From the IMG/VR virus record IMGVR_UViG_3300046543_000205, positions 1-40,632 of that record: a stretch of 40,632 nt of DNA; one strand, written 5' to 3'. Below, one piece after another: positions 1 to 34,516 of the stretch (the stretch's first letter is position 1; every line of letters starts with the position of its first letter). A program made the translations under genes and the position numbers. The notes below the pieces were generated by a model that was not told the origin of the DNA, ran no database searches, and was given only the letters and a program-made list of their open reading frames with translations. The DNA comes from a virus.

Positions 1-1166
1 AGCAGGTTCGGGCGGATGAGGCTGCCGCCGATATGGCCAAGCGGTACGCGTCCGTCAAGGTCACCAGCGAGCCCGCGATTTACCGTTCCGGTGCGGGCGG
101 CAAGTCGTATTTCCGGGACCTACACCATCCCCGCAACAAGGGTGACCGGGACGCTGCGGACCGGCTGATCCGGAACGACAAGGGCCGTGCCGCTGAGCAG
201 CGAGCCCTTACCACCGTGAATGGCGCTGGTGGCGAGTTTGTTCCGCCCCTGTGGCTTGAGGAGCAGTTTGTTCGGCTCGCGCGTCCGGGTCGAATCACGT
301 CGAACCTGATTCCCAACCAGCCGCTTCCGGCCGGTACCGATTCCATCAACATCCCCAAGGTCAACACCGGCACTGCCGTGGGTGTTCAGACCACGCAGAA
401 CACCGGCGTCACTAACCAGGACCTGACGACCGGCAGCGTCTCCAGCGGCATCACGACCATTGCCGGTGGCCAGACGGTTTCTCTCCAGCTTCTGGAGCAG
501 TCCCCGCTAAACATTGACGACGTGATCCTGTCGGATCTCGCTGCCGCCTACGCCGTTCAGTACAACAGTCTCGTGCTTTCGGGTTCCGGCTCTGCGGGTC
601 AGCCGACCGGCATGCTGACCCTTGCCGGTACCAACTCCGTGGCATTCACCAGCGCTTCGCCGACCCTTGGCGGCACTGGCGCGAATGCGCTCTACCCGAA
701 GCTGGCTAACGCCATTTCGCAGATTCACACCAAGCGGTACCTCCCGCCGGAGGTTATCGTCATGCACCCGGTCCGCTGGGCTTGGATGCTGACTCAGTCC
801 GACAGCTCGAACCGTCCGCTTGTCACCCCGCGTGCGGGCGCATTCAACGCGCTGGGCGTTGCGGGTGAGGTTGCCTCGCAGGGTCTGGTGGGCGAAATGC
901 TCGGTCTGCCGGTCTACGTGGACGCCACCATTCCGACCAACGGCGGCGCTGGCACCAACCAGGACACCATCATCATCGCGCGTCTGAGCGACCTAATGCA
1001 GTGGGAGTCCAACGTTCGCGCTGAGGCTTTCCAGCAGACGTACGCCAACCAGATGAGCGTTTTCATCCGGATGTACAACTACATGTCTTTCCAGGCTGGT
1101 CGTTACCCGGCGTCCATCTCGACCGTCACCGGTACTGGTCTAGCCAACGCTGCCGGTTCGTTCTAA
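1..1166 (+). CDS. Major capsid protein (HK97 fold), 3' part
   Basis: This is the C-terminal part of the major capsid protein. The gene starts at 40293 at the other end of the window and wraps round, so the whole protein is 449 residues once the 156-base overlap is removed. The frame is open from base 3. HK97-type capsid proteins carry an N-terminal scaffold-like delta domain that the phage protease removes before the shell matures. The segment around ALTTVNGAGG, just after a charged stretch, is where the mature protein probably begins. The rest has the usual HK97 look: ITSNLIPNQPLPAGTD, then SINIPKV and a C-terminal half with HPVRWAWM. The gene follows portal and protease genes, as in phiC31. 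Identity rests on gene order and overall pattern. Confidence 0.88.
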   Translation, partial: QVRADEAAADMAKRYASVKVTSEPAIYRSGAGGKSYFRDLHHPRNKGDRDAADRLIRNDKGRAAEQRALTTVNGAGGEFVPPLWLEEQFVRLARPGRITSNLIPNQPLPAGTDSINIPKVNTGTAVGVQTTQNTGVTNQDLTTGSVSSGITTIAGGQTVSLQLLEQSPLNIDDVILSDLAAAYAVQYNSLVLSGSGSAGQPTGMLTLAGTNSVAFTSASPTLGGTGANALYPKLANAISQIHTKRYLPPEVIVMHPVRWAWMLTQSDSSNRPLVTPRAGAFNALGVAGEVASQGLVGEMLGLPVYVDATIPTNGGAGTNQDTIIIARLSDLMQWESNVRAEAFQQTYANQMSVFIRMYNYMSFQAGRYPASISTVTGTGLANAAGSF

Positions 1167-31130: not shown

Positions 31131-31164
31131 AAGCCCCGCTCACTCCACTGTGGGCGGGGCTTTC
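31131..31164. terminator. Bidirectional terminator
   Basis: AAGCCCCGC and GCGGGGCTT form a 9-bp stem. A T-run follows on the + strand; the AA before the stem gives a shorter one on the minus strand. It serves the DUF402 gene and the converging minus-strand genes. Confidence 0.8.
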
Positions 31165-31171
31165 TGCTGGG

Positions 31172-31324
31172 CTAAGCGCACTGCGGGCACTGGCACGGGG
31201 GCCACGCCTGCCGGTTCATGTCGAACGGCTCAGCGGTCACGCCGGAATGCTCGCGTATCTCCGTGTGCGCGTACTGCTGGCCGGTCTCGCTGATCTGGTA
31301 GGTACGAATGGTGATGCCGGGCAA
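31172..31324 (-). CDS. Minus-strand small protein with Cys-rich end
   Basis: 50 residues read on the minus strand from TTG (31324), about nine bases after GGAGGG. PGITIRTYQISETGQQYAHT, then EIREHSGVTAEPFDMNRQAW and a CQCPQC end that could bind metal. Second gene of a short minus-strand pair. The non-ATG start makes the exact N-terminus uncertain. Confidence 0.55.
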   Translation of the reverse strand: MPGITIRTYQISETGQQYAHTEIREHSGVTAEPFDMNRQAWPPCQCPQCA

Positions 31325-31372
31325 ACCGCTGTCATCCCTCCGGTTGAATGTTGTACATGGGCCAACCGGCGA

Positions 31373-31555
31373 TCAGCCGGAGGCATTCCCGCTGGCCGGA
31401 TACAGGTAGAGGAATACCGCCCACCCGCGTCCCCATTTGCGCAGTCCTACGCGCTCCGGCCGACCCATATTGGTGAGGGTGCGGGCCATGTCCCGGAGCT
31501 GGTCGATTGCCTCACGCCGGGACAGGCACCCGGTCACGCGTCGTACCTCGTTCAT
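31373..31555 (-). CDS. Minus-strand small basic protein
   Basis: 60 residues on the minus strand from ATG 31555, preceded by GGAAG; another ATG lies three codons upstream (31564). MNEVRRVTGCLSRREAIDQL, then RDMARTLTNMGRPERVGLRK and WGRGWAVFLYLYP. Basic, with a helix and a strand-rich end. First gene downstream of the minus-strand promoter at 31635-31662. Unknown function; placement beside attP suggests expression in the lysogen. Confidence 0.62.
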   Translation of the reverse strand: MNEVRRVTGCLSRREAIDQLRDMARTLTNMGRPERVGLRKWGRGWAVFLYLYPASGNASG

Positions 31556-31612
31556 GGCTTCCACGCTAGGGCGTGTGCCCGCTGAGCACGTCCTACCAGG
31601 GGCTGAACGGGG

Positions 31613-31669
31613 TCACAGTCGGGTGTCGTCGATGATCACAATGGGGCGTCCTTGCAGGTCAACGCCCAT
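31613..31669 (-). CDS. Possible 18-residue minus-strand peptide or gene remnant
   Basis: ATG at 31669 (minus strand): MGVDLQGRPIVIIDDTRL. It overlaps the minus-strand promoter and has no ribosome site. The sequence reads like the end of a real protein, so it may be a remnant cut off near attP. Tentative. Confidence 0.28.
   Translation of the reverse strand: MGVDLQGRPIVIIDDTRL
31635..31662 (-). promoter_or_regulatory. Minus-strand host-type promoter
   Basis: On the minus strand TTGACC, 16 bases, TGTGAT. The start would be near 31628, upstream of the two minus-strand genes. Confidence 0.5.
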
Positions 31670-31691
31670 CGTGTGGGTGGGTTGACTTCGC

Positions 31692-31711
31692 AAGTAACCT
31701 TTGAGTTACTT
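31692..31711. other. attP core, phiC31-like
   Basis: A perfect palindrome with AAGTAAC and GTTACTT around CTTTGA. It shares GTAACCTTTGAGTT with the phiC31 attP as I remember it, whose crossover is at the central TT. It lies directly upstream of the integrase, as in phiC31. The flanks differ from phiC31 (no CCAACTGGGG arms). Confidence 0.75.
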
Positions 31712-31729
31712 ACTGAAGGGGACTACGCT
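31701..31729 (+). promoter_or_regulatory. Integrase promoter overlapping attP
   Basis: TTGAGT (31701-31706), a 17-base spacer and TACGCT (31724-31729). Transcription would begin about 31736, at the integrase ATG 31737, giving a nearly leaderless mRNA. The -35 box begins at the attP crossover dinucleotide. Confidence 0.5.
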
Positions 31730-31736
31730 TCCCACC

Positions 31737-33479
31737 ATGGCGACACCAGGGGCGATCAGGGGCATGAACACACACGCGGCAGTCTATACGCGGCAGTCTG
31801 AGGGCCGGGAAAACCAGTCGGAAGCTTCCACCGAAGACCAGCGGGACCGGTCGGAAGACCGCGCGAGAACTCTTGGCGCGACCAGCATCACCAAATACGA
31901 CGAAGAGCTAGGCACGTCGGCCTACGGCGGCAAGGCTCGCCCGGTATTTGAGCAGATGCTCACCGACTGCCGCGCCGGTCGAATCAACATGATCGTTGTG
32001 TACTACATCAGCCGCTTTTCGCGCGTTGACCCGCTAGACGCTATCCCCGTCGTCTCGGAGTTGCTGAACCTTGGCGTAACCATCGTGAGCGTGAATGAGG
32101 GGCAGTTCCGCAAGGGCAACCTTATGGACCTCATTCACCTGATCATGCGCCTTGACGCTGCTCACCAGGAAAGCCGAAACAAGAGCGTTGCCGTTACCGG
32201 CGCAAAGAAGATGGCCCGGGAATTGGGCGGCTACACGGGCGGAAAAGCACCCTACGGGTTCAAGCTGGAACCGCACACCGTCACCCGCGAGAACGGGCGG
32301 CCAATCGTTATCCAGAAGCTCGCCATTGAGGAATCCGAAGCGGCTGTTATCCGGCAGATCACTGCCGAAATCGTCGCGCAGCGCCCCGGGGAGGGCGGAT
32401 GGTTCGGCAGTGACGGAGCATCCGTTACCGGCATTGCAGCCAAGTTGGACGCCCAAGGAATCCCGACGCGTGGGCAGACGGTAGGAAAGAAGTTCAGCGA
32501 AAGCCGGTGGGCGGCTCAAATGCTCCGCCGTGTGCTTAAGGACCCCCGCACCGCTGGCTACGGGGCAGAGCCGCAATACAGCACCCGCAAGGACGGGAAG
32601 CCGGGAACGACCGTCACCGGGTACAAGCTAGTGCGCGACCCGGACACCATGATGCCGGTCATGATGCACCCTGAGATCATCCCGCCGGAGCAATGGCACG
32701 CAGTCCAGGCGTGGCTAGAGACGCGCACCCGGACCGGCGAGCGGATCGACCGGGGGCAATCCCTGGTGACCGGTCTTGGCATGGCGTTCTGCGAATGCGG
32801 GGCGAGCGTCAAGACTCACGGAATGAAGAGTCGGCACGGCACCCAATACCAGCAATACCGCTGTTCTCGCGTCCACCCGGAACCGGGAAAGCACGCGGGG
32901 AACGTGTCGATTTCGCAGACAGCGCTTGACGACTACGTGGCCCGCCGTGTGTTCGCGCTGATTCAGAATGCCGGTGGCGACCCGGACACGCACGACGTGT
33001 TGCAGGAAGCGGCACGGCGGTTCGGCAGGACGACTGAACGGCCGGACGTGGCCGCTGAGCGCTCCCGGATAGTGACCGAGCGGGCGGAAGTCGTGGCAGC
33101 GCTTGAGGAGCTGTACGACGAACGCGACGCAGGGGGGTTCAGGACGTCCGTAGGCCGCACGAGGTTCCTCCGGTCCGAACAGACCCTGTCAGACCGCCTG
33201 ATGGCCGTTGAGGCCCGTCTAGGGGACCTTGACGAAGCGGAGGTTCCGGCGCTCCCGCTGGGGGAGTGGGTCAGGGACGACGACGCAGGGGCGGACCCGA
33301 TCGGCCCGGGGTCGTGGTGGCACGGTGCCAGCGTGGTGGAGCGGCGCGCGTTCCTGCGGCTGTTCGTTGAGCGCATCACGCTGTACAAGGCACCCCACCA
33401 GGGCGGCCAGAAGCGCACGCCGGACGAGATGGCCCGACGCGTTCGGGTCGAGTGGGTACACACCCCGACGGAGGAGTAA
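31737..33479 (+). CDS. int: Large serine integrase (phiC31 type)
   Basis: 580 residues from ATG 31737. Another in-frame ATG (31764) puts the catalytic Ser at position 12, as in phiC31; the TTG at 31701 lies in attP and is unlikely. Catalytic motif VYTRQSEGREN, then YISRFSRVDPLDAIPVVSEL and MDLIHLIMRLDAAHQESRNK define the resolvase domain. The recombinase domain follows (GGKAPYGFKLEPH; RVLKDPRTAGYG), then the zinc ribbon CECGASVKTHG...YRCSR and a coiled coil (ERAEVVAALEELYDERDAGG) that controls direction. It joins attP to a host attB; excision needs the Gp3-like factor. C-terminal end is shorter than phiC31's. Confidence 0.95.
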   Translation: MATPGAIRGMNTHAAVYTRQSEGRENQSEASTEDQRDRSEDRARTLGATSITKYDEELGTSAYGGKARPVFEQMLTDCRAGRINMIVVYYISRFSRVDPLDAIPVVSELLNLGVTIVSVNEGQFRKGNLMDLIHLIMRLDAAHQESRNKSVAVTGAKKMARELGGYTGGKAPYGFKLEPHTVTRENGRPIVIQKLAIEESEAAVIRQITAEIVAQRPGEGGWFGSDGASVTGIAAKLDAQGIPTRGQTVGKKFSESRWAAQMLRRVLKDPRTAGYGAEPQYSTRKDGKPGTTVTGYKLVRDPDTMMPVMMHPEIIPPEQWHAVQAWLETRTRTGERIDRGQSLVTGLGMAFCECGASVKTHGMKSRHGTQYQQYRCSRVHPEPGKHAGNVSISQTALDDYVARRVFALIQNAGGDPDTHDVLQEAARRFGRTTERPDVAAERSRIVTERAEVVAALEELYDERDAGGFRTSVGRTRFLRSEQTLSDRLMAVEARLGDLDEAEVPALPLGEWVRDDDAGADPIGPGSWWHGASVVERRAFLRLFVERITLYKAPHQGGQKRTPDEMARRVRVEWVHTPTEE

Positions 33480-33883: not shown

Positions 33884-33956
33884 GCCCCTGTAGCTCAGTT
33901 GGTAGAGCGCCGATTTCGTAATTCGGATGTGGTGGGTTCGAATCCTGCCAGGGGCC
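33884..33956 (+). tRNA. tRNA-Thr (CGT)
   Basis: Acceptor GCCCCTG/CAGGGGC, D-stem GCTC/GAGC, anticodon loop TTCGTAA with CGT, T-arm with TTCGAAT. The last anticodon-stem pair is T-T. CCA is not encoded. It reads ACG. phiC31 also has a tRNA-Thr gene. Confidence 0.85.
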
Positions 33957-34017
33957 CGCGCGCAGCAGCAAGGTACCGAGGTTCACGCCGGGGTCTGTAT
34001 CGAAAGCCTTGTACATT

Positions 34018-34095
34018 TTGCCTGTAGCTCAGTCTGGTTAGAGCTCTCGCCTGATACGCGAGCGGTCACGGGTTCAAATCCCGTCGGGCGAACCA
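34018..34095 (+). tRNA. tRNA-Ile (GAT)
   Basis: Acceptor TTGCCTG/CGGGCGA (with G-T pairs), anticodon stem CTCGC/GCGAG, loop CTGATAC with GAT, T-arm ACGGG/CCCGT. Encoded ACCA end, unlike its neighbours. It reads ATC and ATT. Confidence 0.88.
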
Positions 34096-34165
34096 AGCCG
34101 GATAGCAACCGGGAAAGCTACGGAAGTCAGCGTAGACAGAATGGCGGATAGCGACCGCATCCAAG

Positions 34166-34234
34166 TTGCCTGTAGCTCAGCGGTAGAGCAGCCCCCGGGT
34201 GGGTTGGCCGTGGGTTCGAATCCCACCAGGCAAA
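34166..34234 (+). tRNA. tRNA-like gene with shortened anticodon arm (Pro?)
   Basis: Acceptor TTGCCTG/CAGGCAA, D-stem GCTC/GAGC and T-arm GTGGG/CCCAC are perfect, but only 20 bases separate D and T stems (22-23 expected). The best anticodon arm is AGCCC/GGGTT with the six-base loop CCGGGT, without U33. GGG or CGG would suggest proline. May be degenerate. Confidence 0.55.
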
Positions 34235-34287
34235 CAAAGGGTCGCACCCTTGACGGGAATAAACCGGTGGCCACCGGGATTGCTCCG

Positions 34288-34359
34288 TCGGTCTCGTAGT
34301 TTAAGTGCTGAACTCCACCCTTCAAGGTGGCAGTGCCGGTGCAAACCCGGTCGAGACCC
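34288..34359 (+). tRNA. tRNA-like gene with six-base anticodon loop (Glu?)
   Basis: Acceptor GGTCTCG/CGAGACC, a weak D arm, anticodon stem CCACC/GGTGG with the six-base loop CTTCAA, T-stem GCCGG/CCGGT with the odd loop TGCAAAC. One more T in the loop would give TTC (Glu); read as it stands TCA or CAA are possible. Identity open. Confidence 0.55.
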
Positions 34360-34361
34360 CA

Positions 34362-34434
34362 TGGCGCGTAGCTCAGTCGGCAGAGCAGCGGATTGTTAAT
34401 CCGTGAGTCGCAGGTTCGATCCCTGCCGCGCCAG
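34362..34434 (+). tRNA. tRNA-Asn (GTT)
   Basis: Acceptor TGGCGCG/CGCGCCA, D-stem GCTC/GAGC, loop TTGTTAA with GTT, T-arm GCAGG/CCTGC with TTCGATC. CCA not encoded. Confidence 0.9.
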
Positions 34435-34438
34435 CAAT

Positions 34439-34512
34439 GGCCGCTTAGCCCAATTGGCAGAGGCGCGGGCCTTAGGTGCCCGAGGTTCCCGGTTCGAGTC
34501 CGGGAGCGGCTA
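34439..34512 (+). tRNA. tRNA-Leu-type (TAG) with short variable arm
   Basis: Acceptor GGCCGCT/AGCGGCT, anticodon stem CGGGC/GCCCG, loop CTTAGGT with TAG, T-arm CCCGG/CCGGG. It would read CTA, a codon seen often in this phage. The variable region is only about five bases, whereas bacterial tRNA-Leu has a long one. Confidence 0.8.
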
Positions 34513-34516
34513 CGGA

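Follow-up and report, generated by a model that had tools for sequence, protein, structure and literature searches.

The integrase gene and its attachment site

The window, meaning the entire stretch of DNA analysed, corresponds to a virus record 40,632 bases long in which an attachment site (attP) adjoins the gene for a phiC31-like large serine integrase (int). The features at this locus, with the basis on which each was assigned, are as follows:

31652-31662, plus strand: conserved element TTGCAGGTCAA, outside the proposed promoter, which nearly all relatives with an attP carry 73-86 nt ahead of the int start
31683-31720, plus strand: attP core region, counterpart of the phiC31 integrase-binding repeat, from its register with X59938 178-215 and 196-198 and from the sister-phage junctions
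31692-31711, plus strand: attP inverted repeat AAGTAAC-CTTTGA-GTTACTT, with 25 bp separating it from the int ATG at 31737
31692-31698, plus strand: left arm AAGTAAC, read from the sequence
31701-31702, plus strand: crossover dinucleotide TT, from two Kitasatospora prophage junctions, empty host sites and the TG1 record
31701-31706, plus strand: proposed -35 box TTGAGT, its first two bases being the crossover; most lineages that have this core show TTG at 17-18 nt from the -10
31705-31711, plus strand: right arm GTTACTT, read from the sequence
31724-31729, plus strand: proposed -10 box TACGCT (TAnnnT), just beyond the core attP, from its presence in 15/21 lineages versus 0/102 control starts
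31736-31737, plus strand: predicted transcription start, at or beside the A of the int ATG, from the position of the -10
31737-33479, plus strand: phiC31-like large serine integrase, 580 aa from the first ATG, from Pfam domains and 45% identity; alternative start at ATG 31764
35730-35721, minus strand: second copy of the conserved element in the window, CGCTGGTCAG, which is also found at loci L449-L454 and L429-L448

The integrase is 45% identical to phiC31 Int along its entire length, with Nesbitt, TG1 and Shawty as the next-ranked phage matches, and its best matches among solved structures are those of phiC31 integrase. Pfam Resolvase (PF00239) and Recombinase (PF07508) domains score over the cut-off and the zinc ribbon (PF13408) just under it, in the order and within the length (~550-610 aa) that characterize the phiC31-like class. 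A megablast search for near-identical phages gave no match.

As an earlier note on this DNA had described, the palindrome upstream of int is perfect (7+6+7): the arms are exact reverse complements flanking CTTTGA, and the dyad centre falls between T31701 and T31702. The sequence that the note gave as shared with phiC31 attP, GTAACCTTTGAGTT at 31694-31707, occurs once in the window and is identical in the phiC31 site. At least 120 viral-collection contigs contain this 14-mer, which is therefore not diagnostic by itself; it was dropped as a probe for relatives because it is unspecific, and the telling feature is its position directly upstream of a phiC31-type integrase. The identification of the site as attP is upheld by this downstream gene and by the prophage junctions of a sister phage with an 83% identical integrase. 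These junctions and the corresponding empty sites show an attP that adjoins int and whose dyad surrounds a dinucleotide identical in attB.

Further upstream, the conserved element has a consensus near GCGTTTCCGCAGGTCAGAGGC in phiC31-family leaders and a wider consensus near CGTTTCCGCAGGTCAGAG; the latter 18-mer has at least 120 exact matches in viral contigs, whereas a single shuffled control of equal length and composition had none. In those actinophage records that we examined, the element is located at ~50-160 bp from the right end of the genome, often paired with a AAACCGCAGGTCAGAG-like copy, and on Kitasatospora chromosomes it is clustered in alternating orientation, ~34 and 21 bp apart. 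With at most one mismatch it is present in 64 of 70 Kitasatospora genomes, and the reversed control in none. We found no paper on this element, nor a function for it, in the literature. A segment of ~470 bp upstream of attP (31163-31630), with a 63-aa ORF on its minus strand (31373-31564), is absent from the sister prophage, with flanks that align on both sides. Behind int lie six clustered predicted tRNAs (33884-34513), for two of which the anticodon was called at two bases only; two HNH-type ORFs come next, and then the small terminase gene.

Crossover and host site in natural prophages

We mapped the crossover from natural integrations, using prophage junctions and empty host sites. Two Kitasatospora genomes (GP82 and MAP5-34; L028 and L029) encode integrases 83% identical to that of the window, and their prophages, of 40,407 bp each, are collinear with the window in many blocks. 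The junction beside int reads CCC-TT-GAG (GGAGGTAGCCC-TT-GAGTTCGTTACT; in the longer reading, GGTGGGCGCGGAGGTAGCCC TT GAGTTCGTTACTAAAGGGGACTACACTCCCCACCATG), and the far-end junction reads CCT-TT-CAA (GCAGGTAACCT-TT-CAACTCGTTCC; in the longer reading, GTACACTTCGCAGGTAACCT TT CAACTCGTTCCGG). Since the bases flanking TT are unlike at the two junctions, the exchange is fixed to exactly this dinucleotide, window positions 31701-31702. A TT crossover is annotated at the homologous position in the TG1 record AB251920. The joined host flanks run without a gap in 11 prophage-free Kitasatospora loci, and thus represent a genuine attB. These natural prophages bear out the placement of the crossover on the first two bases of the proposed -35 box, and in them the DNA upstream of TT has been replaced by host DNA, both as the earlier note had it.

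The attB of the sister phage (GGAGGTAGCCCTTCAACTCGTTCC region) is within a gene for a 2OG-Fe(II) oxygenase that runs opposite to int and whose 3' part adjoins it; being directed away from int, this host gene cannot drive it. The window phage, known from its unintegrated form, would be expected to use the same site. The attB of phiC31 is in a pirin gene, and a sequence like it had been suggested as the recombination partner here. It is probably the wrong substrate, as no pirin insertion was found in the closest relatives, which target the oxygenase gene instead. Pirin-gene integrations of phiC31 type are seen in L017, L030 and L032, where the junction beside int is CCC-TTG and where inspection of the sequence by eye puts the pirin frame antisense to int as well. 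Three Streptomyces genomes (L033, L034 and L036) carry integrases of the same family at another common junction, around TTCCCCGAGCTGTGGAG, which is a host site distinct from the others.

The candidate promoter and the start of int

The earlier note combined TTGAGT and TACGCT into a promoter whose transcripts begin at the int ATG. Both hexamers are present, with a 17 nt spacer and 7 nt between TACGCT and ATG 31737, and the arrangement is conserved across the family and conforms to the TTGnnn-16..18-TAnnnT form of vegetative (sigma-HrdB-like) actinobacterial promoters. The match to the full sigma-70 consensus is weak (7/12), and it is from conservation that we infer promoter activity. A generic sigma-70 scan of the window at a threshold of 9/12 reported no promoter. 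The TTGnnn-16..18-TAnnnT pattern occurs 11 times in the window, counting both strands, and by a rough, post hoc estimate the chance of such a pair 6-8 nt before the int ATG is ~3 in 7,000; comparison of leader sequences argues for a promoter much more strongly than this figure.

When one integrase was taken from each of 21 lineages, 15 had a TAnnnT ending 6-8 nt ahead of the integrase start codon, a count whose exact value depends on our having grouped the lineages by eye on leader similarity and chosen each start codon after a first inspection of the leaders. The contrast with the controls does not depend on these choices: none of 102 other annotated gene starts of phiC31 and TG1 had the pattern, and 2,000 dinucleotide shuffles gave a mean of 0.91 lineages and a maximum of 5. 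Two of the six exceptions carry near-matches in its place (TTAGAT and TTGGAT), and phiBT1, Shady, Shaeky and L035 are without it. The variety of hexamers in the family (TAGGGT, TACAGT, TACACT, TAATCT, TATGAT and TAAGAT) is as expected of a -10 box but does not suit a ribosome-binding site. The phiC31 hexamer TAGGGT (X59938 219-224) falls outside the integrase-binding repeat (178-215); the depositors of that record labelled GTAGG (218-222) as a ribosome-binding site. In the window, phiC31, L003, L010, L022, L025, L028 and others, the -10 is preceded by TTG at a distance of 17 or 18 nt. Recombination also requires the core TTG, so that its conservation is weaker evidence and alone no proof of a -35 box; L019, L021, L026 and L033 have different cores lacking a clear TTG and retain the -10.

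These data also bear on whether int has a dedicated promoter at all, or is read through from upstream genes, with TTGAGT and TACGCT representing a recombination site and a chance resemblance. The empty generic scan would agree with read-through, as would a TTG fixed by recombination, but the -10 is situated beyond the core attP, and its frequency among the lineages sets it apart from the control starts. The records of phiC31, TG1 and Shady moreover annotate putative terminators that separate attP from the genes upstream of it, although a terminator scan of the window found none. We consider read-through improbable as the source of int transcripts.

If the promoter is as proposed, its -10 would make transcripts begin at the first ATG or beside it, and the choice of start codon becomes important. 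Between this ATG and the second in-frame start (ATG 31764; GTG in phiC31), variation by codon position is 0.253, 0.283 and 0.418, highest at the third position, as is also the case for codons past the second start, while no codon-position pattern is seen in the 24 nt preceding the first ATG. Third-position variation from the first ATG onward indicates that this start is in use, now or formerly. Translation from the second start, through an AGGGG-type ribosome-binding site, would give the int mRNA a leader of ~27 nt. AGGGG does precede ATG 31764 in the window, and the phiC31 genome and TG1 (AB251920) records annotate int from the second start, the latter with a ribosome-binding site; phiC31 Int is functional from either start form in laboratory use. 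However, the peptide encoded from the first ATG, MxxGxVxG, is conserved among relatives with variation at third positions, L007 and L035 have no start codon in place of the second start and L010 has TTG there, and the -10 keeps a fixed spacing to the first ATG. Initiation at the second start is therefore the less likely choice, one that we hold to be doubtful. In L032, a Streptomyces sioyaensis relative, the first ATG is lost from the frame (GAG and a one-base shift), so that this integrase would have to begin at the second start. TTG 31701, mechanically listed as an ORF start, was rejected, as it is upstream of the conserved ATG and most relatives do not have it as an in-frame start.

Returning to the first ATG, a Shine-Dalgarno sequence is absent from -15 to -4 before it in the window, and most int leaders of the family are without one before their first ATG. 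Leaderless translation of the int mRNA, as the earlier note proposed, is likely but unproven, being well supported by the -10 spacing and the mostly absent Shine-Dalgarno sequences. On the mapping of the phiC31 int promoter, or on a leaderless int, our literature search found no further paper beyond PMC11784100.

Integration, int expression and related systems

The -35 TTGAGT is unaltered in the integrated Kitasatospora copies, and both hexamers and the spacer stay with int. Integration therefore does not part the candidate promoter from int in the sister prophages, and the suggestion that int expression changes between phage and prophage finds no support: the neighbouring host gene points away, and RT-PCR is reported to detect phiC31 int mRNA once pSET152 has integrated, despite the position of attP in the int promoter region (PMC11784100). 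What the layout resembles is a promoter kept through integration, not a switch between phage and prophage.

A switch would follow if the int promoter were in the left attP arm and upstream, where integration swaps in host DNA and would leave int off or host-driven. The X59938 feature table draws the phiC31 promoter at 163-190, in the left arm, and the window contains TTGACT at 31682-31687, a better -35 than TTGAGT. Yet the hexamers given in X59938 (TTTTCG/TGGGGT) are poor matches and TTGACT has no TAnnnT at 16-18 nt. We rejected TTGACT because it is not conserved alongside integrases more than 80% identical, being GTCCAG in L002 and GTACAC at the far ends of the L028 and L029 prophages. As the persistence of int transcripts after integration and the direction of the host gene also speak against it, a left-arm promoter has little to recommend it.

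In this phage of soil actinobacteria, the chromosome-insertion site sits within what is probably the promoter of its own integrase gene, placed so that the promoter would survive insertion. The explanation that we consider probable as a whole is a leaderless int promoter fused to attP, kept through integration and blocked by bound integrase. Integrase dimers would bind the two attP half-sites and exchange strands at TT 31701-31702, with attB in the host 2OG-Fe(II) oxygenase gene as the partner, as for the sister phage in Kitasatospora. RNA polymerase would use TTGAGT and TACGCT and start at or next to the ATG, yielding a leaderless mRNA. As attB has the same TT, integration would restore the -35 base for base, with the spacer and -10 on the retained arm. 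The basal promoter is thus expected to be carried unchanged with int into the prophage, with altered DNA upstream of the -35 only. By occupying attP, or the hybrid site beside int, integrase would overlie the -35 and repress its own gene, which is the most economical regulatory consequence of the layout. Promoter activity, the start point, leaderless translation and autorepression are the parts of this scheme that we infer. More tentatively, it is possible that selection set the crossover at the upstream edge of the -35 in phiC31-like phages, such that any host site rebuilds a leaderless int promoter and the integrase represses itself; if so, the TTG core would be under both recombination and promoter constraint.

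What is new here is the exact layout of attP and promoter, the breadth of its conservation, and the crossover and host site derived from natural integrations. In Streptomyces and in genome engineering, integrases of the phiC31 type serve as standard tools, and Int produced after integration has been blamed for the instability of phiC31-type vectors (PMC11784100). A promoter on the retained arm would explain why int stays on after integration. The layout further predicts that a change in the -10, outside attP, would silence int without harm to the attachment site, and the natural oxygenase-gene attB would offer a new, possibly orthogonal, integration site.

PhiC31 (Lomovskayavirus C31; X59938, AJ006589) shares with the window the GTAACCTTTGAGTT core, the TTG crossover region and a TTGAGT-17-TAGGGT pair 7 nt from the ATG. 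It differs in its attP arms, in an integrase of 45% identity, and in an attB in the pirin gene, whereas the sister of the window phage uses the oxygenase gene. TG1 (AB251920) has the TT crossover at the homologous place and TTGCTC-18-TAGCCT 7 nt before the first ATG, but its integrase is 43% identical and its record annotates the second start with a ribosome-binding site. The Kitasatospora sp. GP82 and MAP5-34 prophages have the same attP-promoter layout, an 83% identical integrase and mostly collinear blocks; they are integrated, whereas the window has a longer attP palindrome and the extra ~470 bp upstream of it. An overlap of attP and int promoter is already known for phiC31, whose attP has been recognised as lying within the int promoter region (PMC11784100). 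In ICEKp1/ICEclc-type elements, the attachment site likewise sits between the integrase gene and its promoter, but there integration removes the promoter and a host tRNA promoter drives int (PMC13023037), whereas the promoter proposed for the window phage would stay with int.
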